Assembly (NCBI GenBank): GCA_003151155.1
Contig: PLWX01000105.1
Span: 365-64,364 of the forward strand
DNA length: 64,000 bases
Direction of reading: 5' to 3'
Origin: Acidobacteriaceae bacterium
Lineage (GTDB): Bacteria > Acidobacteriota > Terriglobia > Terriglobales > Acidobacteriaceae
Shown here: positions 31,768 to 45,786 of the stretch, one piece after another
How the letters are laid out: each line of letters opens with the position of its first letter
Numbering within the stretch: the first letter of the stretch is position 1
Notes under the pieces: generated by a model
The model's input: only the letters and a program-made list of their open reading frames with translations
Database searches by the model: none
Told to the model about the DNA's origin: nothing
Translations under genes and position numbers: made by a program

Positions 31768-33174
31768 TTAGACCTTTTCCATGGTCTTGGCGCTCAGCCG
31801 CTCCAGAATCCGCGGTCCCAACTGCGATACATTGCCGGCGCCAAGGGTAAGAATCATGTCCCCCGGCTGTGCTTCCGTGGCTGCCATGATCGCCGCCACC
31901 TGGAACGATTTCGCATAAAACGTCGATCGTCCTGAGCGTTCCGTAATCCGTCGCGCCAAGGCTTCCGTTGTGACGCCCTCGATCGGCTGTTCGCTCGCGG
32001 GATAGATATCAATCAGATAAAGCGAGTCGGCATCATCGAACGAAGCCGCGAACTCATCCATGAGGTCGCGAGTGCGGGTATAACGATGCGGCTGGAAGAC
32101 GACGTGAACATGACGGAAGCCGCACTGCTTTGCCGCCGCCAGGGTGGCGCGGATCTCTGTCGGATGATGTCCGTAATCGTCGATTACACTGACGCCGTTC
32201 GCCTTGCCCTTGAGTTGGAAGCGACGATCGACCCCACGGAACTCCGCTAGCGCAGCGCGAATTTTATCCGGAGTAATGTCGAGCCCTATGCCAATCGCAA
32301 TCGCGGCGGTAGCGTTGCGCACGTTATGGATCCCCGGCACCCGCAGCAGGAATTCACCAAGGGACTTGCCTCGATATTCCACCGAAAAATTGCTGAGAAA
32401 TCCCAGCGCCAGCTGCGCGGAATCACAGGGCGAGCAGCGGATCAGGAAATCCGATCCTTCACGCGTCCCGTAGGTCACGATCCGGCGCCGTACCCGCGGT
32501 AGTATCTCGCGCAGCGGGTCATTGTCATTGCAGGCCACCACCATGCCATAGAACGGCACACGATCCATGAACTCCACGAAGGTCTGTTCCACGTCCGCCA
32601 TATCGTGGTAACAGTCCATGTGCTCGCGATCGATGTTCGTCACCACCGCGTGAATGAACCACAGCTTCAAGAACGATCGGTCGCTCTCATCCGCTTCGGC
32701 AACCAGGTATTGCGACTTGCCGAGCCGGGCGTTGGAGCCCATGGCATCCACGCGCCCGCCAACAATCACCGTCGGATCCAGCTCTCCACCTGCCAGCACC
32801 GCGGCTACCATCGAGGTCGTAGTGGTCTTACCGTGCATCCCGCCAATCGCGATCCCGTATTTCAGCCGCATCAACTCGGCCAGCATCTCTGCCCGCTGGA
32901 TCACCGGGATATGATTCGCATGCGCTTCGGCAACTTCTACATTGCTCTTACCGATCGCCGAACTGGTCACCACGACCTCGGCCCCGGCAACATTGCCGGC
33001 GCGATGTCCTTCAAACACCTTCGCGCCGAGCGATTCCAGTCGCTCCGTCACTGCCGAGTGCTTCAGGTCCGAGCCGGAAACCTTGTAACCAAGGTTGATC
33101 AGCACCTCGGCGATGCCACTCATGCCGATGCCGCCGATTCCAACGAAATGTATGCGCTGCAGTTTCGCGAACAA
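31768..33174 (-). CDS. murC: UDP-N-acetylmuramate--L-alanine ligase
   Basis: Adds the first amino acid of the peptidoglycan stem peptide. The 468-aa protein has the N-terminal IHFVGIGGIGMSGIAE Rossmann motif, the ATP site GMHGKTTTTSMVA, then LVAEADESD, HNVRNATAAIAI and DDYGHHPTEI. It is the last gene of the dcw run on this strand. The normal followers ftsQ, ftsA and ftsZ are absent; the next gene downstream encodes the GcvH-like protein. Confidence 0.97.
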   Translation of the reverse strand: MFAKLQRIHFVGIGGIGMSGIAEVLINLGYKVSGSDLKHSAVTERLESLGAKVFEGHRAGNVAGAEVVVTSSAIGKSNVEVAEAHANHIPVIQRAEMLAELMRLKYGIAIGGMHGKTTTTSMVAAVLAGGELDPTVIVGGRVDAMGSNARLGKSQYLVAEADESDRSFLKLWFIHAVVTNIDREHMDCYHDMADVEQTFVEFMDRVPFYGMVVACNDNDPLREILPRVRRRIVTYGTREGSDFLIRCSPCDSAQLALGFLSNFSVEYRGKSLGEFLLRVPGIHNVRNATAAIAIGIGLDITPDKIRAALAEFRGVDRRFQLKGKANGVSVIDDYGHHPTEIRATLAAAKQCGFRHVHVVFQPHRYTRTRDLMDEFAASFDDADSLYLIDIYPASEQPIEGVTTEALARRITERSGRSTFYAKSFQVAAIMAATEAQPGDMILTLGAGNVSQLGPRILERLSAKTMEKV

Positions 33175-33237
33175 AACTTGCCCTCAAAGAACACATTGTT
33201 TTACCACGAAGAGGCCCATCCGCGCCGGGATGTAGGT

Positions 33238-34326
33238 TTAGACCCGCGCTGCTTTGCCGCTTTTGCCTGCCACTCGCACCGCCATGGCAGCAATTTCCGC
33301 CGCCGCATTGGGATGCGAGAGCAGCCGGGCCGCTTGCGACATCTTGGTGAGATGACTTGCGTCCGCAAATAATTCCTGGATCGTCGTCGTGAGCAGTTCG
33401 GGGGTCAGCATCGCTTGCGTCATCATGCGCGCCGCACCAACGTCCACTAGCGCTTGCGCATTCTTCGTCTGGTGATCGTCTGCCGCCGTCGGCAGGGGAA
33501 CGAAAATCGCCGGCTTGGCTGCTGCCGTCACTTCAGCAACGGTACTCGCTCCCGACCTGCAGATGATCAGGTCCGCCTCCGCAAAGGCTCGCGGCATATC
33601 GTCGATGAACGGCGAAACCTCGGCTGCATAAAGCCCATCCAGATATGCCCGCGCCACATGCTCGTATTCCTTTTCGCCCGTCTGGTGAGTGATGCGCAGC
33701 CCTGGTATCGCTTCATACAGTGGCCGAAGCGCTTCGACCACAGCGTTGTTGATCGCGCGCGCTCCCTGGCTCCCACCAAAGACCAGCACGTGCATCCGAC
33801 CGTCACTTTTTCGCTGCGGCAGGTCGAAGAACGCTTGACGCACTGGCACGCCCGTCACCGAGCACTGCCGGAAATATTTGCAGGTCTGTTTGAAATGCAC
33901 CGCCGCTGCCGATGCAAAGGGCGCGACCAGACGATTGGCAAATCCCGGATAGATATTGGGCTCGAAGATCACCGTCGGCACGCGACAGAGTTTCGCCGCG
34001 AGCATTGCCGGCCCCGACGCGTATCCGCCGACTCCGATCATCACATCCGGCTTGAATTCGCGAATGATTCTGCGGCTGGCCGCGATGGCTCTCGGCAGGT
34101 CCAGCATGGTCTTCATCCGAGTCGCGGTACTCACGCGATTCAGCGCACCTACCTGGATCAGACGCAGTTCGAAATTTGCCTTGGGCACCAGCCGCGTCTC
34201 GATGCCCCGCCCGGTCCCGATGAAAATGACTTCGGCGGAATGAACGTTCCGCAACTCCTGCGCGATCGCCAGCGCCGGAATCACGTGTCCACCGGTTCCT
34301 CCACCTGCCAGAATTGCCCGCATCAT
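33238..34326 (-). CDS. murG: UDP-GlcNAc transferase MurG (lipid II synthesis)
   Basis: Adds GlcNAc to lipid I to form lipid II at the inner face of the membrane. The 362-aa protein has the N-terminal [24 protein letters not shown] and the C-domain GGSQGAR and [10 protein letters not shown] motifs. Its first codon overlaps the end of ftsW by one base (start ATG 34326 or 34323). The gap to murC is 63 bp. Confidence 0.97.
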
Positions 34327-35417
34327 TATTCCGCTTGTTGTGTGATGTTCAAAAGCACGCCGACGCTGGCCAGGGTGATGAAAAGCGAAGACCCGCCGTA
34401 GGAGATGAATGGCAGAGGAATGCCCTTGGTAGGCAGTAGCCCCAATACCACGCTGACGTTAAAAAACGCCTGCACCACAACCATGGCAGTAATGCCAGTC
34501 GCCAGCAGCCGTCCGAACATGTCTTCCGTCAGCATGGCGGCCCGAACCCCGCGATACAGGAAGATCGTGAACAGCAGGACGATAAAAACGGATCCTACCA
34601 GCCCGAGTTCTTCCGCCATCACCGCGAAAATGAAATCCGTATGCGGTTCGGGAAGATAGAAGAGCTTCTGCTTCCCTTCCATCAATCCTTGCCCGGTGAT
34701 CCCGCCCGTCGCCACGGCGATCAGCGACTGGATCATATGAAAGCCCGTGCCCAACGGATCGGCATTTGGATCGAGAAACGCCAGCATTCGTTTACGCCGG
34801 AACTCCACCCGAAACAACAGCCAATACAGCGGCAGGATGGATGCCAGGATCGCGTAGCCGAGATAGCGCATCTCCATACCCGCAATGAACAGCATGCTGG
34901 AAGCGATCGCTATGCAGGCAATGCCCGTGCCGAGGTCCGGTTGTTTGACGATCAATCCCGTCAGCATCAACGTGACCAGTCCCGCCGGCATCAACGTGTG
35001 CTTCCAGTCGGTAATCGTCTTGATACGCGACTCCAGCCAGAAGGCGAGGAAGAGAATAATCGCCGGTTTCGCGAGTTCCGATGGCTGAAACGAGAATGCG
35101 CCAAACTTGATCCAGCGATGCGTGTTATGCGAGCGGTCGAGGAAGAACACCGCGATCAGCAACCCCAGCGTAATGCCAAGCAGCGAATACACAAGCGTCT
35201 GGTTCTTATATTTACGGTAGTCAATATTCATGCAGACGATCATCGCGCCCACACCGACCACCGCCCACGCCAACTGCCGGATCAGAAAGGTGTACGGCGA
35301 GCCAAACTTCTCTCCAGCCATCACCGCCGAAGCGCTGAACACCATGATCAGCCCGATGAACACCAGCAGCATCGTGGACCCGAAGAGCCACTTGTCCACA
35401 CTGACGCGCTTCGCCAT
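34326..35417 (-). CDS. ftsW: Lipid II polymerase FtsW (SEDS family)
   Basis: SEDS glycosyltransferase that polymerises lipid II at the division site together with FtsI. The 363-aa protein has ten hydrophobic spans and the family features [30 protein letters not shown] and [14 protein letters not shown]. It starts immediately after the murD stop (35418). Confidence 0.96.
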
Positions 35418-36776
35418 CTACTTCTGCTCCCGCGCCTGCATGCTGCGCACCAATTCTTTAAACACTCGCCCGCGATGCTCGTAGCTCTGGAACTGGTCGA
35501 AGCTCGCACACGCCGGCGCCAGCAGCACCACGTCGCCTTTCACCGCCTTTTGCGAGGCTAGCTTGACAGCGTTTTCCAGGGTCTCGGCATGAACCACTTC
35601 CACGCCGCTGACCTCAGCTTCAATTTTCGATGCCGCTGCCCCGATCGTGTAGACCGTCTTTACCCGCTCGTGCAGCAGGTCGTTCAGCACCGTGTACGGG
35701 CTGCCTTTGTCCTTGCCTCCCAGGATCAAGTGCACGCCTTTTGCAAACGATTCCAGCGCCTTGATCGTCGCATCGACATTCGTCGCTTTCGAATCATTGT
35801 AGTACTCCACGCCCTTCACCGTCGCGGTGTACTCCAGGCGATGCTCCACCGCCTTGAACTGCGAAACCGCTTTGCGAATCTGCTCCGGCGCCACCCCCGC
35901 GGCCATGCCCACGCAAACTGCGGCCAGCACGTTCTCCACGTTGTGCGCGCCTTTCAGCAGCATGTCGTTCACCGACAGGATCTCCTGGTCCTTACCGTCG
36001 CGATAAACGATCGTCTCGCCGCGCAGGAACGCGCCGCGCCTTACGTCATGTAACCGCGAGAACCACAGCACCTGCGACTTCAGCCGTTTGCCAATCTCCA
36101 CGCAAGGCTCGTTATCGGCGTTCAGAACCGCATAGTCACTCGCGCTCTGATTCTCAAACACTCGCTCCTTTGCGGACGCGTAATTCGCAAACGTGTGATG
36201 ACGGTCAAGGTGGTCCGGCGTGATATTCAAGATCGCCGCAATCTCCGGACGGAAACTTTCAATTGTCTCCAGTTGGAAACTCGAAATTTCCAGCACGCTC
36301 CAGGTATCGGCGTCGGCCTGCTCGGCGAAGCTGATCGCGGGGGTTCCAATATTTCCGCCGACCAGCGTCCTCTCTCCGCCTGCTTTAATAATGTCGCCGC
36401 ACAATGAAGTCGTTGTTGTCTTGCCGTTTGACCCGGTGATGGCGATCACGTGGCCCGCCACGAACAGCGCTGCCAGTTCAATCTCGCCAATCACGCGGAT
36501 ACCCTGCTTACGCGCTTGTTCGATTTGCGGTTGGTCGAACGGTACTCCAGGGCTGACCACGATCATGTCCTGGTCGCGAAACGTACGCTCTCCGTGGTGC
36601 CCGGTTTCGACCGTGATGCCCTTATCGAGCAGCAGGGGGATCTCCTGGCGCAACTGCGCTTCCGACTTCGAGTCCGAAACCGTAACCTTCGCGCCTCGCG
36701 CCTGCAAAAATGTAGCCGACGCAACGCCCGACTTCCCTAATCCGACAACCAGTACACGTTTTCCTCGAACGTCCAT
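35418..36776 (-). CDS. murD: UDP-N-acetylmuramoylalanine--D-glutamate ligase
   Basis: Adds D-glutamate to the stem peptide. The 452-aa protein starts MDVRGKRVLVVGLGKSGVA. ATP site GSNGKTTTTSLCG, then NITPDHLDRH, HNVENVLAA and YNDSKATNVDA. The ATG at 36776 fits the family start; 4 extra codons upstream are possible. It lies 40 bp after mraY. Confidence 0.97.
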   Translation of the reverse strand: MDVRGKRVLVVGLGKSGVASATFLQARGAKVTVSDSKSEAQLRQEIPLLLDKGITVETGHHGERTFRDQDMIVVSPGVPFDQPQIEQARKQGIRVIGEIELAALFVAGHVIAITGSNGKTTTTSLCGDIIKAGGERTLVGGNIGTPAISFAEQADADTWSVLEISSFQLETIESFRPEIAAILNITPDHLDRHHTFANYASAKERVFENQSASDYAVLNADNEPCVEIGKRLKSQVLWFSRLHDVRRGAFLRGETIVYRDGKDQEILSVNDMLLKGAHNVENVLAAVCVGMAAGVAPEQIRKAVSQFKAVEHRLEYTATVKGVEYYNDSKATNVDATIKALESFAKGVHLILGGKDKGSPYTVLNDLLHERVKTVYTIGAAASKIEAEVSGVEVVHAETLENAVKLASQKAVKGDVVLLAPACASFDQFQSYEHRGRVFKELVRSMQAREQK

Positions 36777-36816
36777 CAATCTTCTCAATTCGTCATTGTG
36801 CCACGCAGCCGCGGCC

Positions 36817-37956
36817 TCACCGCAGCTTTAATGTCGTAAGTGCAAACAGTGCAAACACCAAACTGGCAATCCAGAACCGCACGATGATTTTTGACTCCGA
36901 CCACCCCAGCAACTCGAAATGATGGTGTAGCGGCGCCATCTTGAAAATGCGCTTCTTCCTTAACTTGTACGACCCAACCTGCAGGATTACCGACAGCGCC
37001 TCGAGCACAAAAATCCCGCCGATAAAGGGCAGCAGCAGTTCCTGCTTGATGATCACTGCAACCGTCCCGATCGCCCCACCCAGTGCCAGCGATCCCACAT
37101 CGCCCATGAACACTTCGGCCGGGTGCGCGTTGTACCAGAGAAATCCGATCGCCGAGCCAACCATCGCTCCACAGAAAATCGAGAGTTCGCCAACCTCCGG
37201 CATCCTCGACAGCCCCAGATAATCGGCAAATTGCGCGTGCCCGCTGACGTAGGTCAGCACCGTAAGCGCCCCCGCCGCAATCACCGTGCAGCCAATCGCC
37301 AACCCGTCGAGTCCGTCGGTCAAGTTCACCGCGTTGCTTGACCCGACTAAGACCACGGCTACAAACGCCAGAAACGGGACATACGCCAGGATCCAGATAT
37401 GCGGATAGGTAGCGAGGTGTTCGAATTCCAGGTTTGGACGGAAGTTCTTCGCAAACGGAACGATCAGGTGCGTGTTGTAGGCGCCATGCCGCTGGATCAG
37501 CACCAGCGCCATGGCCACCAGCACGCTCACCAGGATCAGGTATCCCATCTTGCTGCGGGCCGTCAGTCCGAGGTTGCGGCGGTTCGCCACCTTCAGATAG
37601 TCATCGGCAAACCCAATCGCTCCAAAGGCGATCGTCGCCAGCATCGCGATCCATACGAACTTGTTCGTCAGGTCTGCCCACAACAGCGTAGGAATAATGA
37701 TGGCGATCGTTATAAGTACGCCGCCCATCGTCGGCGTCCCTGACTTCTTCTGGTGCGACTTCGGTCCTTCTTCACGGATGTATTGGCTGATCTGGAATTC
37801 GCGCAGCCGCCGTATCACGGCCGGCCCAATGATCAGGCCCATGAACATCGCAGTCAGGCTGGAGAACGCCGTGCGAAACGTCAGGTACCGGAAAATTCGA
37901 AAGGGCGTGAAGTTGAGGTAGTGAAAAAGCTTTTCGTAAAGAAGCCAGTAGAGCAA
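36817..37956 (-). CDS. mraY: Phospho-N-acetylmuramoyl-pentapeptide transferase
   Basis: Makes lipid I from UDP-MurNAc-pentapeptide and undecaprenyl phosphate. The 379-aa membrane protein carries GTPTMGG, GFADDYLKV (the DD pair), NLTDGLDGLA and MGDVGSLALGG, and ends with HHHFELLGWSE. I chose the TTG at 37956, which gives the family start LLYWLLYE, with AAAGGA 10 bp upstream; the upstream extension to 38001 lacks similarity. Confidence 0.96.
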   Translation of the reverse strand: MLYWLLYEKLFHYLNFTPFRIFRYLTFRTAFSSLTAMFMGLIIGPAVIRRLREFQISQYIREEGPKSHQKKSGTPTMGGVLITIAIIIPTLLWADLTNKFVWIAMLATIAFGAIGFADDYLKVANRRNLGLTARSKMGYLILVSVLVAMALVLIQRHGAYNTHLIVPFAKNFRPNLEFEHLATYPHIWILAYVPFLAFVAVVLVGSSNAVNLTDGLDGLAIGCTVIAAGALTVLTYVSGHAQFADYLGLSRMPEVGELSIFCGAMVGSAIGFLWYNAHPAEVFMGDVGSLALGGAIGTVAVIIKQELLLPFIGGIFVLEALSVILQVGSYKLRKKRIFKMAPLHHHFELLGWSESKIIVRFWIASLVFALFALTTLKLR

Positions 37957-38047
37957 TCTTGTCTTGTCCTTTGAATGCCGTGCCCTCCGGCATCTTCTCA
38001 TCTACCAAGTATCTTTGGCTGTTGGGGGAATGCCTTAGCCCTGCTCG

Positions 38048-39418
38048 CTAAGCGCCCGTCAGTTCTCTCCACTTTTCAATGGCCCGCTCCAACTTCACTC
38101 CGCGCGACGCCTTCAGCAAAACTGCGTCCCCAGAACGAACGTTCTTCGCCAACCACTCCCCAGCCTCTTCCGTTGACGCCACAAACTCCGCCCGCACGCC
38201 CAAATCGCTCGCGGCTTCCACCATTGTCTTCGCGAGACCCCGCACTCCTAAAAGGATTTCAGCTCGGCTCGCTAAATGTTGCCCGCATTCGCGATGCAAT
38301 CGCTCGCCATCGCTGCCCAGTTCCAGCATCTCTCCGGCAACCACGATATGGCGCCTCGCCGGCATTTTTGCCAGCGCATTCACCATTGCATTCAGGGCTT
38401 TCGGATTCGAATTGTAGCAATCGTTGATCACCGTCGCCCCCGCGATCTCCACCACCTGCCCACGCTTGTCCGACGCCTGCAACGTCTTCAGTGCATCGAC
38501 TGCATCGCGCAGCGGAACGCCGTGATGCAACCCCACCGCCACCGCTGCCAGCGCGTTGTAAACGTTATGCTCGCCAATCAGCGGCATCACCGAGGGAACC
38601 CGTTGGTCACGGTAATAAAGGTCGAACTTCGAACCTTCCGATCCCAGCATCTCCACGTGTTCCGCGCGCAAATCCGCGGCGTGCCGAACGCCGAACATCA
38701 ATACCGTCCCGTGGAAGTCGCGGCCGAATTGTGAAACGTATTCGTCGTCCGCGTTCAACACCGCGCAACCGCCTCGCGGTAAATGCTCGATCAACTCATA
38801 CTTAGCGCGCGCGATACCTTTGATGGAATCGAAGAACTCTAAATGCACCGGCGCCACCATCGTCACCACGCCGGTATTGGGTTGCGCCAGTTTCGCCAGT
38901 GCCGCAATCTCGCCAGTATGCGACATGCCCATCTCGATCACGGCGATCTGGTGCTCCGGCTGCAGCTTCAGCAACTGCAGTGGCATTCCAAAATGATTGT
39001 TAAGATTGCCTTCCGACTTCAGCACCTTGTACTTCGCCGAAAGCACGTGAGCGATGCATTCCTTGGTCGTCGTCTTCCCGGCCGATCCGGTCACTCCGAC
39101 CACCGCATGGCCCCACACGCAACGTACCATCGCTGCCAGTCGCTGCAGCGCCGCCAGGGTGTCATCCACAACGATAAGTTTGTTTCTCTGTGCGAAGATC
39201 TGGCGATGATCTTTGGCAACCACGGCTGCGACCGCGCCGCGTTCCAGCGCCGCTTCTACATAGTCGTGTCCGTCGAGACGTTCGCCTCGCACGGCAAAAA
39301 ACAAATCGCCCGGTTGCACTGTGCGTGAATCAATGCTGTAGCCAAGCGCCTCCGCGTCGGTGCGATAGTCGCCCGACCCGTTCATGAATTCCGCCACTCG
39401 CCACAGCGCTAACTTCAT
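38048..39418 (-). CDS. murF: UDP-N-acetylmuramoyl-tripeptide--D-alanyl-D-alanine ligase
   Basis: Completes the stem pentapeptide. The 456-aa protein has the N-terminal substrate domain (DSRTVQPGDLFFAVRGERLDGH, in pieces), ATP site GSAGKTTTKECIA, EMGMSHTGEI and NDCYNSNPKA. The ATG overlaps the murE stop as ATGA, so the two are translationally coupled. Confidence 0.97.
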   Translation of the reverse strand: MKLALWRVAEFMNGSGDYRTDAEALGYSIDSRTVQPGDLFFAVRGERLDGHDYVEAALERGAVAAVVAKDHRQIFAQRNKLIVVDDTLAALQRLAAMVRCVWGHAVVGVTGSAGKTTTKECIAHVLSAKYKVLKSEGNLNNHFGMPLQLLKLQPEHQIAVIEMGMSHTGEIAALAKLAQPNTGVVTMVAPVHLEFFDSIKGIARAKYELIEHLPRGGCAVLNADDEYVSQFGRDFHGTVLMFGVRHAADLRAEHVEMLGSEGSKFDLYYRDQRVPSVMPLIGEHNVYNALAAVAVGLHHGVPLRDAVDALKTLQASDKRGQVVEIAGATVINDCYNSNPKALNAMVNALAKMPARRHIVVAGEMLELGSDGERLHRECGQHLASRAEILLGVRGLAKTMVEAASDLGVRAEFVASTEEAGEWLAKNVRSGDAVLLKASRGVKLERAIEKWRELTGA

Positions 39419-40929
39419 CCGGTATGGCTCCCATGTAACTGCGGAGTACCATACCCGGCTTCATGCAAGGCTTGCAACGCCACTTTTACGTCGTCAAACG
39501 GATGTACGCCCTCGCGCGTGGTCTGCGTCTTCTCATGGCCCTTGCCCGCGAGAATTACGATGTCCCCCAGCCGCGCATTGGCAACCGCCATCCCAATCGC
39601 TTTTTTGCGATCCGGTTCCACCAGGAACTGCGCCCCTGTTTCGGCAAGCCCCGGCAGAACGTCATTCAGGATCGCCTTCGGCTCCTCACTCCGCGGATTG
39701 TCGGAGGTCAGGATCACCAGGTCGCTGCCTTCACCGGCAGCCTTCCCCATCAGCGGACGCTTCGTCTTATCGCGATCGCCACCGCACCCAAACAGCGTGA
39801 TCACCCGTCCGCCGCCTGCCTGCTGCACGAACTCCCGGGCCAGCGAAGTCACATTGCGCAGTGCGTCATCGGTATGCGCGTAGTCCACGATCACCGAGAA
39901 CGGCTGCCCCGCGTTCACCCGCTCGAATCTTCCCGGAGCACGCGTCACGTGCGTGATCGCTTCGCTGATGCGGTCCGCATGAATGCCACGTTCCATTGCC
40001 GCCGCCGACGCTGCCAGCAGGTTATATACATTCACTTTTCCCAGCAGTGGGCTAAACACTGCTATGCGTCGCTCCGGCGTCACCATCTCAAAGCGCGTCC
40101 CTGTCGAAGTCATTTCCAGCTTTTCGGCGTGGAAGTCCCCGCTCGCCAGTCCATAGGTAAACACCTTGTCGCAATGCTTGTGCGCCAGTTTGACCAGCTG
40201 TTCACTCCAACTGTCGTCACGATTGATGATTGCCACCCGCGGTGGCTCCGTGCCACAGCCTCGGAAGAGGCATGCTTTCGCTCGGAAGTAGTTCTCCATC
40301 GTGCCGTGGAAATCGAGATGATCGCGCGTGAGGTTGGTGAACACCGCTACGTCGTAGGGCACGCCATACACACGTTCCTGCGCCAGCGCATGTGACGACA
40401 CTTCCATCACCGCTTCCGTTACGCCGTGACTTACCGCTTCGTGAAACACACGGTTCAGCTCCAGTGACTCCGGCGTAGTATGCGGCGCCGGCATCACTCG
40501 TCCCGCGATGTGATATTCCACCGTGCCTACCATTGCCGTCTTGCGTCCCGATTGTCGCAGTAGAGACTCAATTAGGTAAGTCGTGGTCGTCTTGCCGTTG
40601 GTGCCGGTCACGCCGGTGATCGCCAGCTTTTCCGCCGGCTTCTTATAAAAATTGGCGCTCAACTTCGCCAGCGCCCGACGTCCATGCGCCGCCACCGCCC
40701 ACGCAATGTCTTTTCTCGGAGGCTCGGTCGCTGAATCCGTCACCACCGCCACCGCTCCCGCTTGGATCGCGGTGTCAATGTACTTATTGCCGTCGGTCGT
40801 CCCGCCGCGCATCGCAACAAAACAAAATCCCGGCTGTATCCGCCGCGAATCATAATCCAGCCCATGAATCCCTGCATTCCCCGCACAGGCGAGAATCTCA
40901 GCCCCGTCGATAAGTTGGAAGAAATCCAT
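39415..40929 (-). CDS. murE: UDP-MurNAc-L-Ala-D-Glu:meso-diaminopimelate ligase
   Basis: Adds the third stem residue. The 504-aa protein has ATP site GTNGKTTTTYLIE, VMEVSSHALAQERV, FTNLTRDHLDFHGTMENY in pieces, and the substrate motif DNPRSE. The DNPR form marks enzymes that use meso-diaminopimelate, so the wall is probably of the DAP type. It lies 104 bp after ftsI. Confidence 0.97.
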   Translation of the reverse strand: MDFFQLIDGAEILACAGNAGIHGLDYDSRRIQPGFCFVAMRGGTTDGNKYIDTAIQAGAVAVVTDSATEPPRKDIAWAVAAHGRRALAKLSANFYKKPAEKLAITGVTGTNGKTTTTYLIESLLRQSGRKTAMVGTVEYHIAGRVMPAPHTTPESLELNRVFHEAVSHGVTEAVMEVSSHALAQERVYGVPYDVAVFTNLTRDHLDFHGTMENYFRAKACLFRGCGTEPPRVAIINRDDSWSEQLVKLAHKHCDKVFTYGLASGDFHAEKLEMTSTGTRFEMVTPERRIAVFSPLLGKVNVYNLLAASAAAMERGIHADRISEAITHVTRAPGRFERVNAGQPFSVIVDYAHTDDALRNVTSLAREFVQQAGGGRVITLFGCGGDRDKTKRPLMGKAAGEGSDLVILTSDNPRSEEPKAILNDVLPGLAETGAQFLVEPDRKKAIGMAVANARLGDIVILAGKGHEKTQTTREGVHPFDDVKVALQALHEAGYGTPQLHGSHTG

Positions 40930-41033
40930 GGAGAATAGATTCTAACGACTTCAATAAAGGTAAGCGAAGATATTGCGAGCTGTTCCCAAAACAAGCCTTA
41001 GCCGTTAGCGCCCTCGGACCGCAGCAGGCGAAC

Positions 41034-43217
41034 CTAGCGTGCGAACCGTACCGTAATTCGCTCGCCCGGAGCGATCCTTGCTCCCGGCTCCGGCGACTGT
41101 CCGCGCGCCAATCCCGATCCCACCACGTTCACTTCCAACCCTTGATGCTGCGCCGCCTCAATCACCCCTCGCACCGACTTACCAAGGAACGACGGCACCA
41201 CCATCCCACCGCCAACTTCCACCGTCATCGGCGCTCCCCCACTGGGAGAGGGTGCAACCGGAGCGGTCGTCGACGAAGTGTCGGGTTCAGGCAACGCTCC
41301 TCCCGAAGTCACCGGCGTAGCCGCTAACGCAGTGGGAATAATCTGAGCACCGCCGCTCGCCGGGGCTGCACCCTTGGCAACTACCGGCGCACTCGCTGGC
41401 TTCGCCGGCGCTTCGGCTTCGCTGAAGTCCGGTCCCGGACCTTCCCGATCCAGCGCGCCGCTTTCTTCCAGGTCTGAATCTTTTACCTTCGCCAGCAGCA
41501 TTTGCCGCTTGGGATCGCCCTTGATCTCAGCATCGTGCGGCACATTCATATATTCCAGCGCCTGCTGCATGATGCGGTTGAACACCGGCGCGGAAACCTG
41601 GCCGCCTTGATGCAAGCCTTTCGCCGAATCCAGAATCACCGCCACCGTCAGCGCCGGCGCATTTACCGGAGCAAAGCCGACGAAGCTTCCCACGTAATCC
41701 GTCTTCGAATAGAGGTGTGTCTTCGGATCGACCTTCTGCGCCGTTCCCGTCTTACCTGCCGCCGTGTATCCATTCAGGATCGCGCGTCGCGCCGTGCCTT
41801 CCAGCACCACCTGCTGCATCATCGAGCGCATCTCCGCCGCCGTCATCGACGAAATCACCCGCCGCTGATCTTTCGGATGGAACACGATCTGCCGGTATCC
41901 CTGCGTCGGCTGCGTTACATCCGCAACGATCCTCGGTGGTGTATAGATTCCGTCATTCGCAATCGACGACACCATCGAGATCACCTGCAACGGCGTCACG
42001 CCAACTTCCTGACCGATCGACATCGATCCAATCGACGACCCCGACCAGTGCGACGGCGGCTTGATCAATCCACGCGTCTCGCCCGGCAGTTCAATCCCCG
42101 TCTGCTGCCCGAAGCCATAATCTTTAATGTGCTTGTAGAACTTGTCCGGGCCGAGCCGCAGCCCCATCTTCACTGCCGCCACGTCGCTCGACTCGGCATA
42201 AGCCTTCGCAACCGGCACCACGCCAACGTGATGCGAATCGTGAATCCGTATGCCGCCCACCACGATGAACCCTGGATCGCAGCTCACGATCTCGTCCGGC
42301 TTGGTCAAATGCTCTTCCAGCGCCGAGGAATACGTGACCGTCTTAAACACCGATCCCGGCTCGTACACATCGCTCACCGCGTGGTTCTTCAACATCGCCG
42401 AGGTAATCTCTTTCGCCAGGTTCGGATTGAACGTCGGACGATTTGCCAGCGCCAGGATCTCGCCGGTGTGCGGATTCTGCACCACCACCGTTCCCGCCAC
42501 TGCATGCGTTTCTTGGATCGCCTGGTCGAGTTCTTTCTCCGCGATGTACTGGATGTTCTGATCGATCGTCAGCACGACGTTCGCGCCTTGGTCCGGTTGC
42601 TTCTCGATGCGCCCAAACCATCGCCGGCGCGCATCCATGGTGATGATCATCCGCCCCGGATTGCCCTTGAGATCATCGTCGAACTGCAGCTCGGTTCCCG
42701 CCAGCCCGCTGCCGTCCATGCCGACATAGCCCAGTACCTGCGCCGCCAGTTCGCGCTTCGGGTAGTATCGCTTCGATTCTTTTTGGAAGTAGATCCCGCG
42801 TAGGTTCAGATCATGGACGCGCTTGCTCTTGTCCTGATCGACTTTGCGCGCCACCCACGCAAACGACTTCGAAGCCTTGAGATGGTTCAGAATGTCGTAG
42901 CTGTCCGCACCAAGAATCTTCGCCAGCAAGCGTGCGGTAGAAGACTGGTCGGGAATTTCACTGGGCACCGCGAAAATCGAATCGACGCTCACCGACATCG
43001 CCAGCTCGTGCCCGCCGCGGTCGTAAATCACCCCCCGTGGTGGATCGACGGTGATGGTTCGCTGCTGCTGCCGTGCCGCCTTTTGCACGTACTCGCCGTA
43101 CTTGAACACCTGCAGTTGTACCAGTCGCAGGCAGACCAGCAATCCCCAGAAAAAAAGCAGTCCCCCAAGGATGTAGAGCCGCTTCTTTCCATCCGTGGTG
43201 ACTGCCAATTTCGCCAA
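41034..43217 (-). CDS. ftsI: Division-specific transpeptidase FtsI/PBP2b type with C-terminal PASTA domain
   Basis: A 727-aa class B penicillin-binding protein: one N-terminal membrane span (about 15-30), a dimerisation domain, then the transpeptidase motifs EPGSVFK (SxxK), SSD at the SxN position and AAGKTGTAQK (KTG). After a Pro/Ala-rich linker (about 585-665), the last ~60 residues form a PASTA domain (VPSFLGKSVRGVIEAAQHQGL in pieces), more usual in Gram-positive SpoVD/PBP2x proteins. The TTG at 43217 has GGGAGTAGG upstream. It is separated from the ftsL-like gene by 198 bp with hairpins. Confidence 0.95.
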   Translation of the reverse strand: MAKLAVTTDGKKRLYILGGLLFFWGLLVCLRLVQLQVFKYGEYVQKAARQQQRTITVDPPRGVIYDRGGHELAMSVSVDSIFAVPSEIPDQSSTARLLAKILGADSYDILNHLKASKSFAWVARKVDQDKSKRVHDLNLRGIYFQKESKRYYPKRELAAQVLGYVGMDGSGLAGTELQFDDDLKGNPGRMIITMDARRRWFGRIEKQPDQGANVVLTIDQNIQYIAEKELDQAIQETHAVAGTVVVQNPHTGEILALANRPTFNPNLAKEITSAMLKNHAVSDVYEPGSVFKTVTYSSALEEHLTKPDEIVSCDPGFIVVGGIRIHDSHHVGVVPVAKAYAESSDVAAVKMGLRLGPDKFYKHIKDYGFGQQTGIELPGETRGLIKPPSHWSGSSIGSMSIGQEVGVTPLQVISMVSSIANDGIYTPPRIVADVTQPTQGYRQIVFHPKDQRRVISSMTAAEMRSMMQQVVLEGTARRAILNGYTAAGKTGTAQKVDPKTHLYSKTDYVGSFVGFAPVNAPALTVAVILDSAKGLHQGGQVSAPVFNRIMQQALEYMNVPHDAEIKGDPKRQMLLAKVKDSDLEESGALDREGPGPDFSEAEAPAKPASAPVVAKGAAPASGGAQIIPTALAATPVTSGGALPEPDTSSTTAPVAPSPSGGAPMTVEVGGGMVVPSFLGKSVRGVIEAAQHQGLEVNVVGSGLARGQSPEPGARIAPGERITVRFAR

Positions 43218-43237
43218 GACCTACTCCCTATGGGTGC

Positions 43238-43337
43238 CCCACCCTTGTTACGCAGTGACAGGGTGGGTCGTAACGCTCTCGCTACCACGACTGAACCGCT
43301 TCTACAAACACAGCAGGCGGCCCGGGTTATGGCCGCC
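43238..43337. repeat. Two hairpins in the ftsL-ftsI gap
   Basis: CCCACCCT (43238-43245) pairs with AGGGTGGG (43260-43267) around a 14-base loop. GGCGGCC (43316-43322) pairs with GGCCGCC (43331-43337) around 8 bases. This is the largest gap in the dcw run. The hairpins could reduce transcription of ftsI or be a repeat insertion. Confidence 0.6.
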
Positions 43338-43415
43338 TATTACTGCTTTCAACATACCCCAGGTTGTTGGGGAACCCAGCAGCTTTCACCGCTAGAACTC
43401 GAAAATTTCTGTGAA

Positions 43416-43898
43416 TTACGGCGCCGAAATCACGGACACGCTGCTCATGCGCGCCATCACTTCCGCACCCGGCGTCACTAACCCATCGGAATCCAACTTC
43501 TGCACCTGACCTGCCTGCGGCGCCTGCATTCCCATGTGTCGTGCCATCGCATCGATCCGCTCCGGATCGCGCAGCGAAGCCTGTTCCAGCTTCAGGGTGC
43601 GATTGGCTTCCGCCAACTGGTCGCAGTTGCTCTTCAACTGCTCGATCTTGTACCCGTACTCGATCGAGCTGAAGTGCTGCCATCCATACATCATGACCAA
43701 TGCAAACAGCACCGCCAGCGTCGCGCCGAAGATCGCCATTTCGCGCCGTCGGCGCGGGTCTACCACCTTCATCAAGCGTGAATTGTCGATCGCCTTGGTG
43801 AAGAAAATCTCCGGTGTACCAGGCCGCACCACTACGCGCGGTGCGCTGACATGAGGCGGCGTCCACAAGGTCGCCTGTGCTGGGGCCGCTGCTGCCAT
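43416..43898 (-). CDS. ftsL: FtsL-like division protein
   Basis: A 160-aa bitopic protein in the place of ftsL between rsmH and ftsI. The cytoplasmic N-terminus is Pro-rich and basic, a single membrane span covers about residues 53-72 (MAIFGATLAVLFALVMMYGW), then a short coiled coil (YGYKIEQLKSNCDQLAEANRTLKLEQ, in pieces) and the FtsL-type end LRDPERIDAMARHMGM. FtsL links FtsQ/FtsB to FtsWI. Its ATG overlaps the stop of the preceding small gene by one base (TAATG). Sequence identity in the family is low, so position and topology carry the call. Confidence 0.8.
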   Translation of the reverse strand: MAAAAPAQATLWTPPHVSAPRVVVRPGTPEIFFTKAIDNSRLMKVVDPRRRREMAIFGATLAVLFALVMMYGWQHFSSIEYGYKIEQLKSNCDQLAEANRTLKLEQASLRDPERIDAMARHMGMQAPQAGQVQKLDSDGLVTPGAEVMARMSSVSVISAP

Positions 43899-44206: not shown

Positions 44207-45148
44207 TTACTTCCTGGCTGCCGCCCGCAATTTCGCGCTGCGGCTGCGTGAATTGCGATCGATCTCTTCTTCCGTCGCGGTTACCGGCTTTTTCGTGAGC
44301 AACTCGTACTTCCCTTTCTGCGCTACTTCTCGCATCGAGTCCTTCACGATCCGGTCTTCCAACGAGTGGAAGCTGATGACCACCAGCCTGCCCCGGGGAG
44401 CAAGCACGGCCGGAGCTGCTGCCAGCAGTTCCTTTAAGTCATCGAGTTCATGGTTTACGAAGATTCGGAGAGCTTGAAAGGTCTTCGTCGCTGGATGAAT
44501 CCGCCGTTCTGAGGAATTCATTGGCCGGGCCACGACCGATATAACTTGTGCTAGATGAGCGGTTGTTCGTATCGGCCGTGCCCGACAAATGGCTCTGGCG
44601 ATTCTCCGCGACCTCCTTTCCTCACCGAATTCGTAAATCACATCAGCCAGCTCGCGCTCGCTTATGCGATTTACCACTTGATCGGCGGTCAGCTCGGCTT
44701 GCGGGTCCATCCGCATGTCGAGCGGTCCTTCCGCCTGAAAACTGAATCCGCGTCCGGCATCCTGTAACTGCATCGAACTGATCCCTAAATCCGCCAGCAC
44801 TCCATCGAGCGTCTTCGGTTGCGCATGTTTCGCAACCTCCGCATAGCTCGCGTGCAAGAGCGTGATCCTGGGCCAGTCGGCCTTGAGATCGTCTCCAATC
44901 TCTGTCAGTCGCCGGCGCGCCATCTCCAGCGCATTCGTGTCCTTATCGAAGCCAATCAAATGACCCTGTGCGCCGAGGCGTTTTGCGATTTCGTAACTGT
45001 GCCCGCCTAAGCCCAAGGTCGCGTCCAGATAAGTTCCACCGCGCCGTATGGCTAGAAAATCGATCGCTTCTTGTGAAAGAACTGAAACGTGACTGAATCC
45101 CTCTCCGCCACGCTCGCCCCTCGGGGCGCTCTCGTCTTGCAAATCCAC
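44207..45148 (-). CDS. rsmH: 16S rRNA (cytosine-1402-N4)-methyltransferase
   Basis: The MraW/RsmH methyltransferase acting on C1402 of 16S rRNA. The 313-aa protein starts with SHVSVLSQEAIDFLAIRRGG-type sequence (shortened), DATLGLGGHS as SAM site, GVLADLGISSMQLQDAGRGFSF in pieces, and the C-terminal ISFHSLEDRIVK. The first codon overlaps the last base of mraZ (45148). Confidence 0.96.
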   Translation of the reverse strand: MDLQDESAPRGERGGEGFSHVSVLSQEAIDFLAIRRGGTYLDATLGLGGHSYEIAKRLGAQGHLIGFDKDTNALEMARRRLTEIGDDLKADWPRITLLHASYAEVAKHAQPKTLDGVLADLGISSMQLQDAGRGFSFQAEGPLDMRMDPQAELTADQVVNRISERELADVIYEFGEERRSRRIARAICRARPIRTTAHLAQVISVVARPMNSSERRIHPATKTFQALRIFVNHELDDLKELLAAAPAVLAPRGRLVVISFHSLEDRIVKDSMREVAQKGKYELLTKKPVTATEEEIDRNSRSRSAKLRAAARK

Positions 45149-45591
45149 TAAATACCCAGGTCGCTAAGCGTCTTTTCATCCTCTGCCGTGAACGGAGCCT
45201 GCTCCATTTCAGTTTTGAGCTGCTCCATGTTCCGAACTCCGAGGTACGTCAAGAACCCCATCACAGCGACTTCACCCTTGATCTCCGCCGCGTCCCGTAA
45301 CAACCCCGGGATCGTCACGCGCCCCTGGCCATCCATCTCCACCGCCTGGCCGTAATAGTTCGACACGTTTAGCAACTTCTGCTTCGTCGGATTCAAGCTT
45401 GGTAGCGCCGCCAGCTTCTGCTCGAAACGCTCCCACTCTTCCATCGGGTACAACCGGGCCTGTTTCCCATCGAACGAAGTCACATAGAACTGCTGCGATG
45501 TGAACTTCTCTTCGATTTCACGCTTAAAGTCGGCAGGAACCTTGAGTCGGCCCTTGTCGTCAATCCGCGTTGGGTGATTGCCACGAAACAT
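45148..45591 (-). CDS. mraZ: Transcriptional regulator MraZ
   Basis: First gene of the dcw cluster. The 147-aa protein has two AbrB-like DNA-binding modules with the family DxKGR pattern: DDKGRLKVPADFKRE near residue 10 and DGQGRVTIPGLLRD near residue 83. In E. coli and Mycoplasma MraZ binds period-10 direct repeats in its own promoter. Four such repeats lie 133-166 bp upstream here. Confidence 0.97.
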   Translation of the reverse strand: MFRGNHPTRIDDKGRLKVPADFKREIEEKFTSQQFYVTSFDGKQARLYPMEEWERFEQKLAALPSLNPTKQKLLNVSNYYGQAVEMDGQGRVTIPGLLRDAAEIKGEVAVMGFLTYLGVRNMEQLKTEMEQAPFTAEDEKTLSDLGI

Positions 45592-45723
45592 TTGTCTTGA
45601 CCCTGACTTACAGGACGCTCAAACTTGCCGGTGCTGCAATTTGCAGCGAAAAAGGTGAATTTTGCCGATACCACTACTTGGAGTCCGTTTGCTGTCCCGT
45701 TTTGGCTTAGCCTACTGCTCTGT

Positions 45724-45757
45724 TCCACTCGGCTCCACCACGCTCCAAATTTGTCCA
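45724..45757 (-). promoter_or_regulatory. Putative MraZ operator: four TGGA boxes at 10-bp period
   Basis: On the minus strand TGGA occurs at 45757, 45747, 45737 and 45727 (5' ends), exactly 10 bp apart, three of them as GTGGA. E. coli MraZ binds TGGGN repeats spaced by 5 nt, also a 10-bp period. The boxes begin just downstream of a -10 element, where a repressor would block initiation. Confidence 0.7.
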
Positions 45758-45758
45758 C

Positions 45759-45786
45759 ATCTTATACTTAAGTAGTTGCGAGTCAA
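45759..45786 (-). promoter_or_regulatory. Promoter of the dcw cluster
   Basis: On the minus strand TTGACT (45786-45781), a 16-bp spacer and TAAGAT (45764-45759) resemble a sigma70 promoter. The start of transcription would fall at or inside the first TGGA box, leaving a leader of about 160 nt before mraZ. Confidence 0.55.

Follow-up and report, generated by a model that had tools for sequence, protein, structure and literature searches.

A period-10 GTGG array at the dcw promoter of an Acidobacteriaceae bacterium, a probable MraZ operator, and a candidate overprinted gene within mraZ of its relatives

The mraZ locus and its upstream array

The stretch of DNA considered here, which we refer to as the window, comprises 64,000 nucleotides of an Acidobacteriaceae genome and carries on its minus strand a dcw cluster that begins with mraZ and rsmH (Table 1). 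A DUF2164 gene (PF09932, 46205-46480) lies divergent to mraZ. The MraZ protein falls below the cut-offs of all four listed NCBIfam MraZ models, though the Pfam model PF02381 matches it, and because it passes the one and scores under the others it is, judged by its sequence, a divergent member of the family; genome pipelines may as a consequence leave the MraZ of this bacterial family without a name. As the protein cognate to the array described below it has intact DxKGR and QGR motifs, and a MraZ is encoded in all 31 genomes of the first set of relatives, the genome of the window being counted among them. Solved MraZ structures are present in the PDB, with recent Mollicute-like entries among them.

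A promoter scan returned one match where 0.4 were expected. Behind it, 166-133 nt upstream of mraZ, is the minus-strand sequence TGGACAAATTTGGAGCGTGGTGGAGCCGAGTGGA (45757..45724), which holds four TGGA at exact 10-bp steps, as an earlier note on this DNA had described. When the boxes are read by the core GTGG, which is the conserved one (see below), that description needs correction in one respect, as the second box is TTGGA rather than GTGGA and hence degenerate; the window thus has GTGG in three of its four boxes, repeated directly with a period of 10 bp, and the bases ahead of boxes 2-4 differ from AAA.

Table 1. Coordinates of features at the mraZ locus of the window and of the hidden ORF in relatives
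Feature	Position	Strand	Basis or remark
TGGA copies	45757-45754, 45747-45744, 45737-45734, 45727-45724	-	read directly
-35 hexamer TTGACT of the predicted dcw promoter	45781..45786	-	promoter scan; relatives' logo has TTGACA here
-10 hexamer TAAGAT, 16-bp spacer	45759..45764	-	promoter scan; TAGGAT in relatives, logo -6..-1 before box 1
Putative MraZ box 1, GTGG then A	45755..45758	-	abuts -10; anchored family alignment shows at least 97% conservation of the column
Putative MraZ box 2, TTGG, degenerate	45745..45748	-	GTGG in nearly all relatives
Putative MraZ box 3, GTGG	45735..45738	-	sequence and family comparison
Probable MraZ box 4, GTGG	45725..45728	-	in register in this genus and nearest neighbour L043
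Remaining 5' leader of mraZ	45592..45724	-	start of overlapping ORF in relatives; frame broken here
mraZ, 147 aa, double AbrB-type repressor	45148..45591	-	PF02381 E=1.8e-20, 73 bits; IDDKGR and MDGQGR motifs
rsmH (mraW)	44207..45148	-	PF01795 E=1e-101; start overlaps mraZ stop
Rest of dcw cluster	31768..43898	-	ftsL, ftsI-like PBP, murE, murF, mraY, murD, ftsW, murG, murC
Hidden ORF in relatives (candidate)	L227:1868-2404 (179 aa); L226:1865-2410; L229:1865-2404; L273:1871-2407		unannotated
Hidden ORF carriers	most family loci among L007-L015, L035-L072, L224-L302

The array is rare both under shuffling and in the genome. When the 350-bp upstream region was dinucleotide-shuffled 20,000 times, no shuffle had four TGGA in step, and three in step came up at a frequency of 5e-5. 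A scan of the 5.7-Mb genome that allowed up to two mismatches returned the array itself as its only match with none, and four TGG at period 10 had one other match genome-wide. The search for further TGGA arrays that the earlier note had proposed found none, and no convincing further array of any kind emerged from the genome-wide array scans; two AAGTGG-N4-AAGTGG matches on other contigs were rejected as extra arrays, being near control level. The mraZ leader had no match to an RNA element in Rfam and none in a plasmid search.

Conservation of the array and identity of its core

The upstream regions of 146 mraZ genes were read, and arrays were counted in the 350 bp that precede each gene. Of 103 relatives of the same family, 94 have three or more TGG at period 10, where shuffles give 0.25 genomes, and 87 have three or more GTGG at this period (shuffles 0.0). 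The period before orthologous mraZ genes, whose loss had been named beforehand as the outcome that would speak against an operator, is therefore kept. It extends to the sister family (at least three TGG in 11/12; shuffles 0.05) and to other members of the phylum (14/30; shuffles 0.05), whereas the control periods 7-9 and 11-13 are represented in only 0-1 genomes of the family. A scan of all 4-mers at periods 5-20, made without prior choice of a core, placed GTGG at period 10 at the top by far, with 87 of 104 genomes, against 3 of 104 for TGGA. Likewise 78 of 79 named GTDB genomes have three GTGG in step and none of the 79 has three TGGA, a set which partly overlaps that of the unnamed relatives, some genomes being identical.

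The anchored family logo reads TTGACA-N16-TAGGAT/GTGGwC.AAAGTGGT..AAAGTGGT, where the slash marks the start of box 1. As the alignment was anchored on that box, the procedure itself favours its GTGG and, less strongly, the preceding AA; the -35 and -10 columns lie outside the anchor, and the period counts and the 4-mer scan are free of it. The conserved unit of the family is AAAGTGGTNN, with GTGG as the core and AAA before it, and the base that follows GTGG is A, T or G depending on the box and the species.

This last point bears on the proposal of the earlier note that the array reveals a lineage-specific code, in which the MraZ of this lineage would read TGGA and not TGGG/GTGG, protein and sites having co-evolved. 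An A does follow all four boxes in the window, and this genus has D at position 12 of MraZ, where the five other family members aligned have E. However, three TGGA in step are found in only 2 of 103 family relatives and in none of the named genomes, a genome of the same genus has TGGT at box 1 (its boxes are GTGGT/TTGGA/GTGGA/GTGGA), the base after GTGG differs from box to box, and residues D11, K13, G14, R15 and Q89-G90-R91 of MraZ are the same in this genus as in relatives with AAAGTGGT or AAAGTGG operators. A TGGA code is therefore very improbable and can be regarded as largely refuted; the TGGA appearance reflects drift, at species level, of the base that follows GTGG. In three other members of the phylum (L126, L130 and L138) TGGGA-type arrays at period 10 replace GTGGT, so that families differ in the base following TGG as well as in the G that precedes it.

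A repeat arisen by chance, or a site for another factor such as DnaA, is scarcely credible. Taking the DnaA box consensus to be TTATCCACA, box 1 read on the plus strand, TTGTCCACA, is one base off, and this likeness is all that speaks for such a site. Many relatives carry TTGACCACA at box 1 (the reverse complement of TGTGGTCAA), so the DnaA likeness is not conserved, the conserved feature being the series of GTGG at period 10 that goes with mraZ.

The status of the fourth box requires separate consideration, as it is absent from most family members, where three boxes are typical. It also resembles the GGAGCC-A-GTG start region of a leader ORF in relatives, GGTGGAGCCGAGTGGA in the window being similar to their GAGGCGCCAGTGGA and GAGGAGCCGGTGGAA, and the operator might consist of boxes 1-3 only, with the fourth GTGGA representing the start region of this ORF (GAGG-GCC-A-GTG) shifted into register by a deletion. 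We consider this unlikely, given that GTGG stands in register at both +30 and +40 in L043, the nearest neighbour, that four boxes are common in the sister family, and that the frame from the GTG of box 4 is not conserved between two genomes of this genus. Box 4 is thus probably a real MraZ box, because it is common to the window and this nearest neighbour. Many family members (e.g. L008, L010 and L040) share another conserved GTGGG at a distance of 41 bp downstream of box 1; in family leaders it lies two helical turns (21 bp) past box 3 and is possibly an extra MraZ box.

The array as an operator and its known counterparts

Owing to its position at the promoter, its 10-bp period and its conservation before orthologous mraZ genes in the family, the sister family and the phylum, the array is very probably the MraZ operator of the dcw promoter, through which MraZ would control its own cluster, in agreement with the earlier reading of the site. 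It is an ordinary operator, a drifted version of a known kind of site, and its sequence in the window appears a weak fit to the family consensus, if anything degraded in this genus, since the G of box 2 is lost and AAA is missing ahead of boxes 2-4.

Three known systems can be compared with it. The MraZ operator of Mollicutes is (AAAGTGKN3)3 (PMC5282649; PMC8475190), to which the family consensus AAAGTGGTNN corresponds letter for letter, and the two share the 10-bp period, the AAA and GTG core and the location upstream of mraZ in the dcw promoter, whereas the window's own copy is degenerate by comparison, with TTGG as box 2 and non-AAA flanks. The mraZ promoter of E. coli shows AGTGGGAAATTGTGGGGCAAAGTGGG at the equivalent place, i.e. 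GTGGG three times, again at period 10 after a TTGACA promoter and with the same mraZ-rsmH order, but with G after GTGG instead of T/A, with three boxes and with a shorter leader. Hence the likeness to the sites of E. coli and Mycoplasma that had been suggested for the array holds in its logic, the conserved core GTGG matching both, and does not hold for a distinct TGGA core. In Burkholderia cenocepacia, which belongs to another phylum, four GTG-containing repeats of 7+3 nt follow the -10 of the promoter PmraBc and span the transcription start, which lies 100 nt from mraZ, and in EMSA MraZ shifts the fragment on which they are located (PMC7761207). Four 10-nt repeats with GTG behind the -10 are shared with the window; promoter activity and binding were assayed in B. 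cenocepacia (PMC7761207).

By analogy with the species that have been studied (for repression, E. coli and M. genitalium) we infer binding, ring stoichiometry and repression by MraZ. The protein would form a ring in which each subunit has a DNA-reading loop, and GTGG cores one helical turn apart, on the same face of the DNA, would fit successive subunits. With box 1 abutting the -10, the array would cover the likely transcription start, and MraZ bound there would block RNA polymerase and so repress its own operon. These comparisons extend the MraZ operator (GTGG, period 10) to the Acidobacteriota with an alignment-based consensus, and suggest an operator code that is common to Mollicutes, Proteobacteria and Acidobacteriota and not split by lineage.

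A hidden reading frame overlapping mraZ in relatives

Alignment of the long mraZ leaders of family members uncovered an ORF that is unannotated and overlaps mraZ. Most of them have a Shine-Dalgarno sequence and a GTG (GAGAGGCGCCA-GTG; ATG in some) in the leader, often 71-72 bp after box 1, from which a frame runs out of phase through about 400 nt of mraZ, its codons beginning one base before the mraZ ATG, and ends at conserved stops about 30 nt before rsmH (rsmH start +440). Several observations point to its translation. The distance from the leader GTG to the mraZ ATG is 1 mod 3, with no internal stop, in 56 of 57 distinct sequences, a test that spans about 20 different lengths (82 to 226 nt). 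At the protein level the leader part shows conservation (M....ADTPKNSPNEP..T.I..AFTSL..AVA......P..G.TH), and its dN/dS in the hidden frame is 0.54, the two remaining frames having values of 1.0 and 0.68.

Within mraZ, 37 genomes with the ORF have 14 stops in the hidden frame versus 112 by synonymous shuffling, whereas the ratio in the downstream rsmH is 0.51, and seven family genomes without the ORF have 33 versus 36. The junctions T/GA, T/AA and T/AG are avoided in mraZ of carriers and T/GC and T/GG are not. A stop-making T is almost never used by carriers before mraZ codon 126 and is then used, at codon 136 in 27 of 36 genomes and at codon 138 in 33 of 34. Codon 136 is the telling one (38/60 with the ORF versus 0/11 without, both sets), because genomes lacking the ORF often have a T at codon 138 as well (6/8 over both sets). 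In 40 genomes outside the stop-codon-T test, sorted by their leader alone, the risky T was found in 26/779 for 'open' leaders versus 22% elsewhere, and in 37/307 for 'closed' leaders. In 74 of the 78 named genomes whose leader is open, the frame stays open over 290 nt or more, and in 76 of them a stop falls at 398-416; all these hidden-ORF counts come from related genomes and are not independent of one another, and the tests agree across dozens of genera.

Constraint at the protein level on the overlapping tail was considered and rejected: conservation at the fourfold sites of carriers' mraZ does not exceed that in rsmH (0.57 vs 0.63), and the amino acids of this part therefore seem unconstrained, only its openness and its end point looking selected. 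Searches of Pfam, PHROG and NCBIfam with the product gave no match. Its AlphaFold model has a mean pLDDT of 48, too weak for a fold search, with one helix at 17-36 and the rest predicted to be disordered; this helix of 20 residues is conserved and hydrophobic, its maximal hydropathy being near 1.9.

On this evidence a second protein, absent from annotations, is likely to be encoded by the transcript under the operator in most of the family to which the window belongs, and the sequence evidence for the ORF as an overprinted-gene candidate is strong. The ORF may yield a small membrane protein whose tail is free, or it may act as a translational device, coupling or tuning mraZ and rsmH. A literature search found no paper on a hidden ORF in mraZ and only few described cases of bacterial overprinting. 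Long, conserved same-strand overlapping genes have rarely been documented in bacteria, and annotation pipelines normally suppress them; if true, an overprinted bacterial gene on a dcw regulator across dozens of genera would be new. Sitting on the regulator of cell division genes, it would matter more than the operator.

The window's genus has probably lost the ORF, since its hidden frame contains early stops and it adjoins a carrier in the tree. The sister family (f2; L018-L026 and L031) has short leaders with no conserved start, despite few stops in the alternative frame of mraZ, 9 against 33 expected.
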